From a virus, in the IMG/VR virus record IMGVR_UViG_3300047376_000209, positions 1-21,656 of that record: a DNA stretch of 21,656 nucleotides. One strand, 5' to 3'. This document shows positions 17,485 to 21,656 of the stretch, in pieces (the first letter of the stretch is position 1; each line of letters starts with the position of its first letter). Under the pieces are notes generated by a model. The model did no database searches. It saw only the letters and a program-made list of their open reading frames with translations, and was not told the origin of the DNA. Made by a program: the position numbers and the translations under genes.

Positions 17485-17907
17485 ATGTTAAATTCTTTCG
17501 AGGCTGGCAAGCTAGGCGAACATATATGTATGGTTCGCTTGATGAAGCTTGGCTACTCTTGTCAAATAGTCAACCTAGATACGGTTGATATAATTATTAA
17601 TTGGCAAGATGTTTTTCTGCGCGTTCAAGTTAAATCTAGCATTTTAAAAGGCAGAGGCGGAGCACAAGCCTCGCATATGGGCTATCAGTTCGCCACATCT
17701 CATAGCGGCAAGAAAAAGCCACTAACAAAAAAACAATGCGATATAATAGCCTTTGTTGCGGTAGAGCCAGAGCGTGTTTTGTTTAAACCAGTAGAGTGCC
17801 TAAAAGGTCAGGTTACAAAACGCATATCGCCTGCAAAATTTATTAAAGATGATTTGGAGCAGCGGTCTTTGCAAAATTGCTTAGACCGCATTTTTTTGTC
17901 CAACTGA
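17485..17907 (+). CDS. PD-(D/E)XK-type endonuclease (Hjc-like / intron-endonuclease-like)
   Basis: The product has 140 residues from the ATG at 17485, which follows a G6 run. An in-frame TTG at 17446 would add 13 residues but falls at the predicted transcription start, so I prefer the ATG. The nuclease core is visible: 'FEAGKLGEHICMVRLMKLGY' supplies Glu12, 'DTVDIII' supplies Asp35, and 'VFLRVQVKSS' supplies Gln48-Val-Lys50, the Q-x-K form of the (D/E)xK motif found in this group. Such enzymes cut Holliday junctions or host-derived DNA. Its last 15 codons contain an intrinsic terminator, and its end overlaps the minus-strand ribbon-helix-helix gene by 27 bases. Confidence 0.8.
   Translation: MLNSFEAGKLGEHICMVRLMKLGYSCQIVNLDTVDIIINWQDVFLRVQVKSSILKGRGGAQASHMGYQFATSHSGKKKPLTKKQCDIIAFVAVEPERVLFKPVECLKGQVTKRISPAKFIKDDLEQRSLQNCLDRIFLSN
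17862..17897 (+). terminator. Strong intrinsic terminator inside the 3' end of the nuclease gene
   Basis: GCGGTCT (17862-17868) pairs perfectly with AGACCGC (17883-17889). The 14-base loop contains a nested GCAA/TTGC pair, and ATTTTTTT follows immediately (17890-17897). The T tract is on the plus strand only, so it stops rightward transcription. The nuclease stop codon lies eight to ten bases beyond the T tract. Confidence 0.85.
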
Positions 17908-18078
17908 GCCAATGCCCATAGTATCGTATTCTTTGCCGACTACTGATTTGTATTCTTGGTTAACCATTCTTGTTATTTGCTGGCGAATATTTCTATCTTC
18001 AGCATCACAAATCTTGCGTAATTTATTGTAGGTGCTAATGTCTATACCTACACTTTTCCATTTAGATGTGTCCGCCAT
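17881..18078 (-). CDS. Ribbon-helix-helix-like DNA-binding protein (probable repressor)
   Basis: The minus-strand product has 65 residues. The ATG at 18078 is chosen because GGAGG stands five bases upstream; the frame continues further up but without a ribosome site, and that part is not protein-like. The core 'WKSVGIDISTYNKLRKICDA' and then 'RNIRQQITRMVNQEY' has the ribbon-helix-helix rhythm: a short strand with alternating side chains, a helix starting at T-Y-x-x-L, a turn, and a second helix starting 'IRQQITRMV'. Such dimers bind dyads of the kind seen at 17423 and 18487. Its start and the DUF1064 start are divergent and only 24 bases apart, so its promoter must lie within the DUF1064 gene; TATTAT on the minus strand at 18115-18110 is a possible -10. 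Confidence 0.7.
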   Translation of the reverse strand: MADTSKWKSVGIDISTYNKLRKICDAEDRNIRQQITRMVNQEYKSVVGKEYDTMGIGSVGQKNAV

Positions 18079-18102
18079 ATCAACCTCCGAGGGAACCATA
18101 TA

Positions 18103-18958: not shown

Positions 18959-19817
18959 TATCATTACAGCCGAGCAAAGGCTCAAAGAAAAGAAAGGCCA
19001 CAAGATGGTTGTTTGTGGTCAATCAGGTGTGGGCAAGACTTCTCTTGCCCGTACCCTAGACCCATCCAAGACATTGTTTATGGACTTGGAAGCGGGGGAT
19101 GCGGCTATCGAAGGCGTAGCCATTGACGTTATCCGTCCGCGAACTTGGCAAGAGTGCCGCGACTTCGCAGTATTCTTAGGCGGTCCAAACCCATCATTGG
19201 GTGAAGAAGCCACATATAGTCAGGCACATTACGAATATGTTTGTCAGACATATGGCGACCCAACAGAGACATTATCTAAGTATGATACTATCTTTGTTGA
19301 CTCTATTACCGTGGCTGGACGCTTGTGTTTTACACATTGTCAGAACCAACCTGAGTGCAAATCAGAACGTACTGGCAAGCTAGACACTCGTTCAGCATAC
19401 GGTATGCAAGGCAGGGAGATGATGGGGTGGCTATCTCACCTTCAGCATATCCGTGACAAGAATGTTATCTTTGTGGGCATTCTTGACGAGAAGGTTGATG
19501 ATTACGGGCGGCAGACCTATGAGCTTCAGATTGAAGGCTCAAAGACAGGCCGTGAATTGCCCGGAATTGTCGATGAAGTTATTACGATGGCAATCATGCC
19601 TGATGATAACGGAACGCCTTATCGAGCCTTTGTTTGTCAGACTCTGAACCAGTGGGGATACCCTGCCAAGGACAGGTCTGGTAGACTAGACCTTTTAGAA
19701 GAGCCGCACCTAGGCAAGCTTCTAGAAAAAATGTCAGGCGGGAAGCCACAGGCTGAACGTCAGATGAATTTTGTAAATCCTAATGAAGTTAAAGTAGAGG
19801 ACGAAACCAATGCTTAA
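18945..19817 (+). CDS. RecA-fold ATPase, phage AAA_24 / Sak4-like recombinase
   Basis: The product has 290 residues. The Walker A motif is GQSGVGKTS (residues 25-33), with a following acidic strand 'TLFMDLEAGDAAI' (43-55). Walker B is 'TIFVDSIT' (115-122). 'MQGREMMGWLSHLQHI' and 'KNVIFVGILDEKVDD' fit the next helix and sensor strand. This is the layout of phage nucleotide-binding proteins of the AAA_24 type, several of which are Sak4-type single-strand annealing recombinases (RecA/Rad51-like core). The gene order ATPase then ssDNA-binding protein is characteristic of Sak4 systems. An in-frame ATG six bases later (18951) is an equally good start. The C-terminal 35 residues are acidic, polar and probably flexible. 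It overlaps the next gene by eight bases. Confidence 0.88.
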   Translation: MIMLNIITAEQRLKEKKGHKMVVCGQSGVGKTSLARTLDPSKTLFMDLEAGDAAIEGVAIDVIRPRTWQECRDFAVFLGGPNPSLGEEATYSQAHYEYVCQTYGDPTETLSKYDTIFVDSITVAGRLCFTHCQNQPECKSERTGKLDTRSAYGMQGREMMGWLSHLQHIRDKNVIFVGILDEKVDDYGRQTYELQIEGSKTGRELPGIVDEVITMAIMPDDNGTPYRAFVCQTLNQWGYPAKDRSGRLDLLEEPHLGKLLEKMSGGKPQAERQMNFVNPNEVKVEDETNA

Positions 19818-20463
19818 TCTAAATGAAGTACCCGTATCAAGCGGAAGCAACGAACCATTAACACTCATTCCAGATGGGACTATTGCGCGTGGCGTTTTAA
19901 TGTTCCAAGGCGGCGACCAAATGATGCCAGAGTTTTCACAGAGCGCGATGTTCTTTAAAAAGTCTGCACATACTAGCGCCGTGTGGATGCCAATCGAAAT
20001 GACTATTGTTGGCGGTCAGTATGACAAGCGCAAAGTATGGCAGAATATCTTTATTCATGGCGATGCTATTGACGAAGCTACTGGCGTGTCAAAAGCGCGG
20101 ATGATTGGTTTGGATACCATTAGAAAAATCCTTAACAGTGGTCACAATCTGGACGCAAATGACATGTCTCCAGAAGCGCAAGCAAAGCGTCAAATCAATG
20201 GCGTTGAAGAATTACAAGGCTTAGAAGTTTGCTTTGTAATCGGCATTGAAAAGAGCAATGACCCACAATATGCAGACAAGAACAGAATCAAAACTTTCTT
20301 GTCACCAGATAGTGGGGACTTCATTGCGCCAAATGGCTCTGGAGGCGCGTCAGCTGCCCCAGCATTGTCTCCTATGCCGCCACAGGTACAACAAGCTATG
20401 AACGCACAGATGCCAGCACAACAGGCTCAGAGCGGCGTTACACCAGCTTGGGCACAGAAATAG
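19810..20463 (+). CDS. DUF669-like ssDNA-binding protein
   Basis: The product has 217 residues. The pattern 'VWMPIEMTIVGGQYDKRKVW' and 'QNIFIHGD' (a beta-hairpin with Y-x-x-R-K-(V/I)-W-Q-N), then 'ARMIGLDTIRKILNSGHNL' and 'ELQGLEVCFVIGIEKS', matches phage DUF669-type proteins, which take the place of SSB. The last 45 residues are low-complexity Ala/Gln/Pro/Met ('PMPPQVQQAMNAQMPAQQ') and end 'TPAWAQK', like the flexible tail of an SSB but without the acidic tip. It presumably coats ssDNA for the ATPase encoded just upstream. It is the last gene before the structured gap. Confidence 0.82.
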   Translation: MLNLNEVPVSSGSNEPLTLIPDGTIARGVLMFQGGDQMMPEFSQSAMFFKKSAHTSAVWMPIEMTIVGGQYDKRKVWQNIFIHGDAIDEATGVSKARMIGLDTIRKILNSGHNLDANDMSPEAQAKRQINGVEELQGLEVCFVIGIEKSNDPQYADKNRIKTFLSPDSGDFIAPNGSGGASAAPALSPMPPQVQQAMNAQMPAQQAQSGVTPAWAQK

Positions 20464-20662
20464 TCGGTACTGTAGTTCAAGTATCTTGGACAGGTATTGA
20501 TTAGGGAAAGGTCTTGTAGTTCGCCATGTCGGTTGGGGGTCTTGGCTTTTCCCGAAATAATAAAGGCGTACTAACGGCATCCTTAGTTGGTCGTTAGCTG
20601 GTTTGGGTGGCACCAGTGCCGTAAAGCCACCCACCTTATTTAACGAAAGGAAGGGCAATAAA
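20464..20662 (+). other. Structured gene-free segment (candidate ncRNA or 5' regulatory leader)
   Basis: No convincing coding frame is present. Four consecutive local helices can be drawn: 20475-20481 with 20485-20491 (7 bp, 3-base loop), 20504-20511 with 20546-20553 (8 bp, one G-U), 20571-20578 with 20590-20597 (8 bp, one G-U) and 20604-20611 with 20626-20633 (8 bp perfect, TGGGTGGC/GCCACCCA). A competing pair GGCAC/GTGCC (20609-20613 with 20616-20620) overlaps the last helix, so it could switch. No clear T tract follows, so it does not look like a simple terminator. It leads directly to the ribosome site of a minicistron. I know no matching RNA family. Confidence 0.5.
20604..20633 (+). repeat. 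Perfect 8-bp inverted repeat with an alternative internal pairing
   Basis: TGGGTGGC and GCCACCCA enclose a 14-base loop. The 3' part of the left arm plus two loop bases (GGCAC) can instead pair with GTGCC inside the loop. The two helices exclude each other. The structure ends 12 bases before the minicistron's Shine-Dalgarno. Confidence 0.7.
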
Positions 20663-20731
20663 ATGCGTAATGCAAAGAAAATGATTGAAGATATTCGTGA
20701 GCGTCTACACGAATATCGGTTGGACAAGTAA
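20663..20731 (+). CDS. 22-residue minicistron leading into the methyltransferase
   Basis: An ATG with an excellent AAAGGAAGGG (20646-20655, seven bases upstream) opens a 22-codon frame encoding a highly charged helix ('NAKKMIEDIRERLHEYRLDK'). Its TAA shares its last A with the methyltransferase ATG. The methyltransferase has no ribosome site of its own, so ribosomes ending here probably restart there. The sequence is not low-complexity and may be functional, but the coupling role alone would explain it. Similar small leader frames are used for translational coupling in phages. Confidence 0.65.
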   Translation: MRNAKKMIEDIRERLHEYRLDK

Positions 20732-21656
20732 TGTTAAAGCATGTTGATTTATGCTCTGGAATCGGGGGCTTTGCCCTTGGTTTCAAATGGGCGGGTTTAT
20801 CAAAGCCCGTCCTTTTTTGTGACATCGAGCCGTGGTGCAGAAAGTTACTCGCACAGAACTTTCCTAATGTACCTATCGCTGATGATGTTAAGGAGATAGC
20901 AAATGAGCCAAGAAGATTTATTTCAGAACCCATTGGAATCCTCACCGCAGGATATCCCTGTCAGCCCTTCTCAGCCGCAGGGAAAAGGCGAGGCGAAGAA
21001 GACCCTCGCCACATCTTCCCGCACATCCTTAGAATTGTTGCACAAACAAGACCGACTTTTACCGTTTTCGAAAATGTTTATGGACACATCTCTATGGGCT
21101 TGGACAACGTACTCCATGCAATGGAAGGCGAAGGTTACACCGTCAAACCATTTGTTGTTCCAGCTAGTGGTGTCGGCGCCCGCCACAAACGCGACAGAGT
21201 CTGGATATTGGGCTACGCCGAACACGATGGACCACTTGCCGCAGAGGTCGCCAGAGGCTCTTTTAAAGCAGGCGACACAGGCGAGGAAGGGGCGTACCAG
21301 ACCAGCCAATCTGAGGGAACAGGTAGACCCGAATACGGTGAAAATGTGGCAACAGGCACAGGAGCCGAAAATGTGGGCGACACCGAGGACTTCAGACGGG
21401 ACGGGCGGTCCGAGGCAGTTGGACGAACAGGGTCGCAGGGTGAGCAAGACGAACCCCAACCTGAAGTTCGGGGCGAACCTAGCCGACCAAGTGAAGATGT
21501 GGCCTACACCCAGAGCATCGGAATACAAAGATACTGGCCCAGTGGGGAGCAAGTCGCATACTCACATGAAGGACAGAAAATATCTTTGTGCAGCGGTGAA
21601 AGAAACAGCGCAACCCAGTGGCAAGCTGAACCCTGCTTGGACAGAGTGGTTGATGG
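20731..21656 (+). CDS. C5-cytosine DNA methyltransferase (partial, runs off the window)
   Basis: The frame is open for 308 codons to the edge. It carries the C5-methyltransferase motifs in order: motif I 'DLCSGIGGFALGF' (residues 6-18, SAM binding), 'FCDIEPWCRKLL' (motif II), 'DDVKEI' (motif III), 'GYPCQPFSAAGKRRG' with catalytic Cys77 (motif IV), 'FENVYG' with Glu114 (motif VI) and 'RHKRDRVWILGY' (motif VIII, residues 151-162). A Gly/Glu/Arg/Gln-rich stretch of about 130 residues follows instead of an ordinary recognition domain. The visible end 'QWQAEPCLDRVVDG' resembles the segment just before motif X. Methylation may protect phage DNA from host restriction. From 20903 on, the DNA also encodes a second protein in the +1 frame. 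Confidence 0.92.
   Translation, partial: MLKHVDLCSGIGGFALGFKWAGLSKPVLFCDIEPWCRKLLAQNFPNVPIADDVKEIANEPRRFISEPIGILTAGYPCQPFSAAGKRRGEEDPRHIFPHILRIVAQTRPTFTVFENVYGHISMGLDNVLHAMEGEGYTVKPFVVPASGVGARHKRDRVWILGYAEHDGPLAAEVARGSFKAGDTGEEGAYQTSQSEGTGRPEYGENVATGTGAENVGDTEDFRRDGRSEAVGRTGSQGEQDEPQPEVRGEPSRPSEDVAYTQSIGIQRYWPSGEQVAYSHEGQKISLCSGERNSATQWQAEPCLDRVVD
20890..20895 (+). promoter_or_regulatory. Shine-Dalgarno inside the methyltransferase gene for the overlapping frame
   Basis: AAGGAG stands seven bases before the ATG at 20903. A TAG in the same frame (20897-20899) lies between them, so the overlapping frame cannot begin further upstream. In the methyltransferase frame these bases encode part of 'DVKEIA'. 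Confidence 0.75.
20903..21656 (+). CDS. Overlapping +1-frame gene within the methyltransferase gene (partial), W-(A/P)-T-P repeat protein
   Basis: From ATG with AAGGAG at ideal spacing, the frame is open for 251 codons to the edge. The product begins 'MSQEDLFQNPLES' and contains 'LLPFSKMFMDTSLWAWTTYS', 'MQWKAKVTPSNHLLFQLVVS', 'YWATPNTMDHLPQRSPEALL', 'QARKGRTRPANLREQVDP', 'KMWATPRTSD', 'KMWPTPRASEYKDTGP' and finally 'GKLNPAWTEWLMG'. I know these phrases ('LNPxWxEWLMGxP', 'xMxPTPxAS', 'MDTSLW') from phage proteins that follow or are annotated as cytosine methyltransferases, so the frame is not a chance opening. Function is unknown; a partner or recognition subunit of the methyltransferase is my inference. 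Trp and Thr-Pro repeats (Trp103, 158, 200) mark the middle. The end is outside the window. Confidence 0.78.
   Translation, partial: MSQEDLFQNPLESSPQDIPVSPSQPQGKGEAKKTLATSSRTSLELLHKQDRLLPFSKMFMDTSLWAWTTYSMQWKAKVTPSNHLLFQLVVSAPATNATESGYWATPNTMDHLPQRSPEALLKQATQARKGRTRPANLREQVDPNTVKMWQQAQEPKMWATPRTSDGTGGPRQLDEQGRRVSKTNPNLKFGANLADQVKMWPTPRASEYKDTGPVGSKSHTHMKDRKYLCAAVKETAQPSGKLNPAWTEWLM
21206..21514 (+). repeat. Three dispersed 18-bp units with meaning in both frames
   Basis: Units at 21206-21223, 21371-21388 and 21497-21514 are related DNA (pattern TGGGC-ACNCC). In the overlapping frame they read YWATPN, MWATPR and MWPTPR. In the methyltransferase frame the same bases give the LGYAE, VGDTE and VAYTQ stretches. 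Confidence 0.7.

Follow-up and report, generated by a model that had tools for sequence, protein, structure and literature searches.

Comparative evidence places positions 20566–20634 of the window, i.e., the whole 21,656-nt stretch analysed here (a 21.7-kb phage fragment from IMG/VR), in a previously unrecognised, phage-confined RNA family. This 69-nt plus-strand element is predicted to form a P1/P2 hairpin followed by an H-type pseudoknot made of P3 and P4. It lies in a 199-nt gap (20464–20662) bounded by the c1 open reading frame (ORF) and, downstream, by a 22-codon minicistron and then a C5 DNA methyltransferase gene. A sequence-only reading had described this gap as the only sizeable gene-free stretch of its region, which is roughly correct, other gaps of the region holding minus-strand ORFs. 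The gap is composed of two unrelated parts, a lineage-specific 5' module (20464–20553) and the widely conserved 3' element. The functional RNA proposed by that reading does sit in the gap, but its conserved part is only the 3' 69 nt.

The first helix, P1, pairs CUAAC (20571–20575) with GUUAG (20593–20597), all features of the element being on the plus strand. A GGC bulge (20576–20578) separates P1 from the P2 hairpin region (20579–20592), which varies in length and sequence and in which short pairings are kept as judged by eye. In the pseudoknot, P3 joins CUGGU (20598–20602) to ACCAG (20612–20616) and, after a loop 1 of two nucleotides, the 7-bp P4 joins GGGUGGC (20605–20611) to GCCACCC (20626–20632). 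Loop 3 (20618–20625) is GCCGUAAA in the window and GCC[GC][UC]AAA in the family, a conservation partly fixed by our search patterns. The GCC of this loop (20618–20620) could pair back to the GGC bulge. The three pairs of this contact are invariant in the tested set and hence show no covariation, partly because the search patterns fixed GCC; the flanking pair C20575–G20621 switches from CG to GC, with C20575 also pairing in P1. Since the bulge GGC is absent from L155 and the GCC from L202, we offer the contact as a proposal and not as a universal feature. All the helices reported from the sequence alone are present (H0 of 8 bp, the M1 stem of 8 bp, P1 and the 7-bp P4). The competing internal pairing reported with them, GGCAC/GTGCC, is present in the window, but divergent relatives do not retain it; there, the same loop bases make P3 and the GGC/GCC contact; the supposed mutually exclusive hairpins are therefore better read as a pseudoknot.

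Covariation supports this fold. Across 40 sequences, 97.4% of cells pair, compared with 36–48% in slid controls, and 97 cells are doubly changed, compared with 27.8 in shuffles. A tree-based null like that of R-scape, in which substitutions were re-dealt along branches, was applied to 22 unique rows and 1035 column pairs. The top five column pairs all fell on proposed pairs of P3 (E = 0 and 0.04) or P4 (E = 0.005, 0.095 and 0.31; all cells paired). Under the same null with 22 unique rows, neither P1 nor the GGC/GCC contact was significant. Support for P1 comes instead from comparison of sequences outside the covariation test: in L155 (GUUUCAAG/CUUGAAAC) and L202 (UUGCCGAG/CUCGGCAA), a different perfect helix takes the place of all of P1. 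Loss of conservation and of covariation among relatives, named beforehand as the outcome that would speak against a functional RNA, was looked for; P3 and P4 covary and the element is conserved. Judged by predicted folding energy alone, the whole gap is not exceptional (z of −1.5, with −0.8 for the 3' element and −3.05 for the 5' half), and it is the comparative evidence that makes the 3' element certain.

Selection on the element can be followed directly where it is translated. In three sub-lineages, the helix-turn-helix (HTH) gene c11 starts inside or next to the 3' end of c1, and the element is read as the N-terminal codons of c11. Pairwise comparison gives synonymous differences of 2.7, 0.5 and 0% in the element codons versus 42, 15.5 and 12.8% over the final 60 codons of these genes. 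In addition, compensating one-base changes between L044 and L043 shift the frame within the element, altering the peptide but preserving the RNA helices. As read from these substitution patterns, selection acts on the RNA and not on the protein, and a decayed-gene origin of the element is ruled out. The preference of the sequence-only reading for a functional structured RNA over a decayed gene is strongly supported. Persistence inside a reading frame with such sites is unusually direct evidence of RNA-level selection.

The extent of the family was established by collecting relatives of c1 and comparing the DNA 3' of their stop codons, and by two pattern scans of IMG/VR, which returned 97 and 76 stretches; a pairing filter discarded 2 chance matches from the first scan and 10 unpaired contexts from the second. 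The element recurs in phages whose c1 is only 41–50% identical. We estimate the family at about 160 IMG/VR contigs (not an exact count), with 52 distinct element sequences; matches to covariance models R1/R2 score 24–87 bits. Divergent forms found via c1 or a covariance model and not via the patterns (L155, L202 and L030/L031/L034) match as well. Exactly one copy was present in 12 of the 15 larger phage contigs searched whole, and near-complete genomes carry one each. Two copies on the 4.4-kb contig IMGVR_UViG_3300030103_002197 (L039, L059) reflect either a repeat or an assembly artefact. The result is a well-supported RNA family, absent from Rfam, in the replication region of diverse uncultured, mostly marine phages known from genome fragments.

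Searches of Rfam 15 at gathering and permissive thresholds, with the window and its variant types, gave no gathering-score match and only unrelated weak matches (E ≥ 2), in agreement with the earlier failure to assign a known RNA class. Covariance models of the SAM riboswitch classes likewise matched neither window nor variants, and the absence of a SAM-related signal noted before holds. No true copy was found in the cellular genomes searched: two matches from the pattern scan of cellular genome contigs were judged to be chance by their absent pairing, and all that a covariance model retrieved from 385 alphaproteobacterial genomes were tmRNA sites or weak matches lacking support. Cultured phages gave no DNA match, and the SSB-gene relatives of AcaML1, WO and Megaira lack the element. 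Full-text searches of open-access literature, judged by titles and abstracts, gave no description of the element; an earlier one may exist in subscription papers or preprints.

The 5' module, found only in close relatives of the window, comprises the H0 hairpin (20464–20500; stem 20464–20471/20493–20500) and the M1 stem-loop (20504–20553; stem 20504–20511/20546–20553), both on the plus strand. Both fold well (z of −3.05 in the window and −5.95 in L004), and in six sequences no cell is unpaired; each helix has one pair changed on both sides. M1 holds an extra GUGC/GCAC hairpin in relatives that the window does not have. Relatives (L006, L013, L158 and L163) carry between c1 and the element an extra module, TTTTCTGGAAGTTAGGATTACAGCGAAAGCTG..CTCCAGAAA, which is absent from the window, shows hairpins by eye and has no Rfam match. 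In the distant relatives L036 and L037, the same gap after the c1 homologue holds a different long hairpin (GGGCGTAGG...CCTACGCCC) matching neither R1 nor R2.

Upstream of the gap, c1 (19810–20463, plus strand; phrog_2300) found no sequence match among solved structures. Its AlphaFold2 model has good confidence except in the tail (mean pLDDT 77), and its best match is PrgE of pCF10 (Foldseek E = 1.5e-5, VIA Z 9.4), other OB-fold ssDNA-binding proteins also being matched. By this similarity of the modelled fold, c1 is best matched to the OB-fold ssDNA-binding type and is putatively SSB-like. Downstream, a Shine-Dalgarno region, AAAGGAAGGG (20646–20655, plus strand), precedes the minicistron MRNAKKMIEDIRERLHEYRLDK (20663–20731, plus strand). 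L054 carries an intact relative (MRNAKKMIEDIRDRL...RKRLHEYRLDK), and from this sequence comparison the minicistron is recognised as an internally deleted, in-frame remnant of a decayed HTH gene c11. At the deletion junction, a perfect 10-bp inverted repeat, GATATTCGTG/CACGAATATC, has arisen. The C5 cytosine DNA methyltransferase gene (PF00145; 20731–21654, plus strand), a lineage-specific neighbour, runs off the contig. Within its coding sequence, a strong intrinsic-terminator-like hairpin with TTTTTT (20789–20812) is also visible in the close relatives L010, L011 and L035. Elsewhere in the window, a small minus-strand ORF at about 17900–18079 (MADTSKWKSVGIDISTYNKLRK...; cluster c9), ribbon-helix-helix-like by eye, is kept in many relatives, opposite to the main gene direction.

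All the phages share the gene order ... c4, c7, c0 (Sak4-like), c1, [element], variable gene(s), c12, c2, c3. The gene before the element is almost always SSB-like, the element standing just after c1 or after one inserted gene (c24 in one group), and this synteny holds over lineages sharing 41–99% protein identity. From the upstream stop to the element start there are 11–21 nt in most lineages, with exceptions of 25–122 nt that include the window, and in most non-coding versions a linker of 18–34 nt with a Shine-Dalgarno sequence precedes the next start. In the c24 group (L040, L074, L077, L095), an inverted repeat, GCATC/GATGC, lies 3' of the element and takes in the start codon of the following gene. 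The following gene may encode an HTH protein, a C5 methyltransferase, a helicase, phrog_4652, phrog_13596 or others. This variation rules out a methyltransferase-specific leader, and the link with the methyltransferase drawn from the window alone is not supported: it is the upstream SSB-like gene that is near constant. The element is under strong selection and fixed at the boundary between SSB and replication genes, whatever gene comes next. Relatives in which c11, with its own Shine-Dalgarno sequence, follows c1 do not have the element. Comparison of six element-bearing with two element-free partial genomes singled out no partner gene; that c1 seems missing from the latter two is an artefact of ORF calling.

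From the fixed position we infer action in cis: the element would be part of a polycistronic early mRNA and work where the SSB-like gene gives way to the genes for replication. Tentatively, and by analogy with T4 gene 32, we favour an mRNA pseudoknot read by a protein that would control translation or access at this boundary, the first candidate reader being the OB-fold SSB encoded immediately upstream. Excess SSB would nucleate on the pseudoknot and spread over the short unstructured linker and the ribosome site of the next gene. This reading draws on the P3/P4 covariation, the RNA-level selection, the synteny with SSB and the single copy per genome, as well as on the OB fold of the upstream protein, the spacing to its stop, the Shine-Dalgarno-bearing linker and the T4/RB69 precedent. 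In T4 and RB69, a leader pseudoknot controls SSB, and one such pseudoknot overlaps the neighbouring reading frame (PMC535899). Against an SSB operator, the element follows the SSB gene instead of preceding it, some phages have c24 or as much as 122 nt in between, three sub-lineages carry the element inside an ORF and not in a leader, and the two element-free genomes compared point to no partner gene. If SSB does read the element, T4-style SSB feedback would have a counterpart far outside the T4-like phages.

The only cellular resemblance concerns tmRNA. Model R2 gave weak matches (24–28 bits) in 11 of the 385 alphaproteobacterial genomes, and at least five of these, each weak, lie at the 3' terminus of the tmRNA coding piece (G283, G059, G076, G098 and G033), where R2 scores 25–28 bits in several species; because these five share one homologous tmRNA, they count as one event. 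That 3' end consists of a hairpin followed by an H-type pseudoknot, and alphaproteobacterial tmRNA (RF01849) weakly resembles the element in this order, in a short loop 1, a P4 of 6–8 bp, an A-rich loop 3 and the AC that follows. The reciprocal tmRNA model R3 gave no significant match to the element (best E = 0.66), a weak negative since its P4 structure line was misregistered. Unlike tmRNA, the element has neither a tag reading frame nor a tRNA-like domain: inspection of the window and of the distinct element versions showed no tag ORF ending in a hairpin stop codon, and neither ARAGORN nor Rfam found a tRNA-like domain in the window. Homology to tmRNA is unlikely. There is a slim chance that phages carry, in the element, a mimic of the helix-5/pseudoknot domain of the host's two-piece tmRNA or a descendant of that domain, retained in their mRNA for action on the ribosome, tmRNA-binding proteins or tmRNA decay; descent from tmRNA, if true, would give phages a new means of engaging ribosome rescue.

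Nearly as likely as the SSB operator is a 3' boundary or stability element, in which the pseudoknot is a barrier to 3'-to-5' exonucleases or the mark of a processing site, such that upstream recombination/SSB messages outlast the downstream part. We regard it as possible. The position is tied to the upstream stop (11–21 nt in most lineages) even with c24 upstream or without a leader downstream, no expression platform was found, and the sole cellular look-alike is the pseudoknot ending the tmRNA coding piece; yet a generic stabiliser would have no need to conserve GCC[GC][UC]AAA or a set order of helices, ribosomes would unfold the pseudoknot where an ORF runs through it, and the spacing reaches 77–122 nt in L168 and the window's own lineage. 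Processing of the element out of the mRNA into a small RNA acting in trans, for example on host ribosomes or RNases, is rather doubtful: in its favour are the single copy per genome, the retention whatever the downstream gene (even inside an ORF) and the hairpin-then-pseudoknot order resembling the helix 5/pseudoknot region of tmRNA, but the genomic position is nearly fixed, no discrete transcript is known and no promoter-like site was found in the gap.

The sequence-only reading had suggested a riboswitch, an attenuator or a stable phage RNA. A structured functional RNA is upheld. Its observation that the gap (20464–20662) shows no obvious terminator was confirmed, no GC-rich hairpin with a U tract being present. 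Sequestration of the Shine-Dalgarno sequence is not general (mean of −5.5 versus −4.6 kcal/mol in shuffled sequences; none in the CUAGC/GUCGGU type), and a conserved anti-Shine-Dalgarno switch via the P4 3' strand, seen in some lineages, was rejected given its absence from that type. With neither signal, a riboswitch or attenuator is possible and not favoured. A metabolite riboswitch with an unusual output is improbable: the fold is compact and pseudoknotted, with highly conserved loops, and runs directly into the ribosome site in most non-coding versions, but the downstream genes have no common pathway, and Rfam gave no match. Least probable is a processive antitermination element like the put RNA of phage HK022. 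The element does stand within a long co-directional gene array, with the terminator-like hairpin and TTTTTT 155 nt downstream, but that hairpin lies in coding sequence and is seen only in close relatives of the window.

Among known systems, SAM-II and related H-type pseudoknot riboswitches also place a pseudoknot ahead of a ribosome site; unlike them, the element has no Rfam match, carries an embedded hairpin upstream and precedes genes outside sulfur metabolism. In the ZTP (pfl) riboswitch, bases of an internal loop in the first hairpin pair with those in the loop of a second. The proposed pairing of the bulge of the first hairpin with a later loop is similar, while the lack of an Rfam match, the extra P3 pairing and the unrelated downstream genes set the element apart. 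With the T4 gene 32 operator it shares an H-type pseudoknot, here by comparative evidence only, in phage mRNA beside a gene for a ssDNA-binding protein (here a PrgE/SSB-like OB-fold protein by model fold similarity), followed by a short, less structured ribosome site (PMC535899). It differs in lying 3' of the SSB gene and not in its leader, in its additional P1/P2 hairpin and possible third pairing, and in that SSB binding is only putative here.
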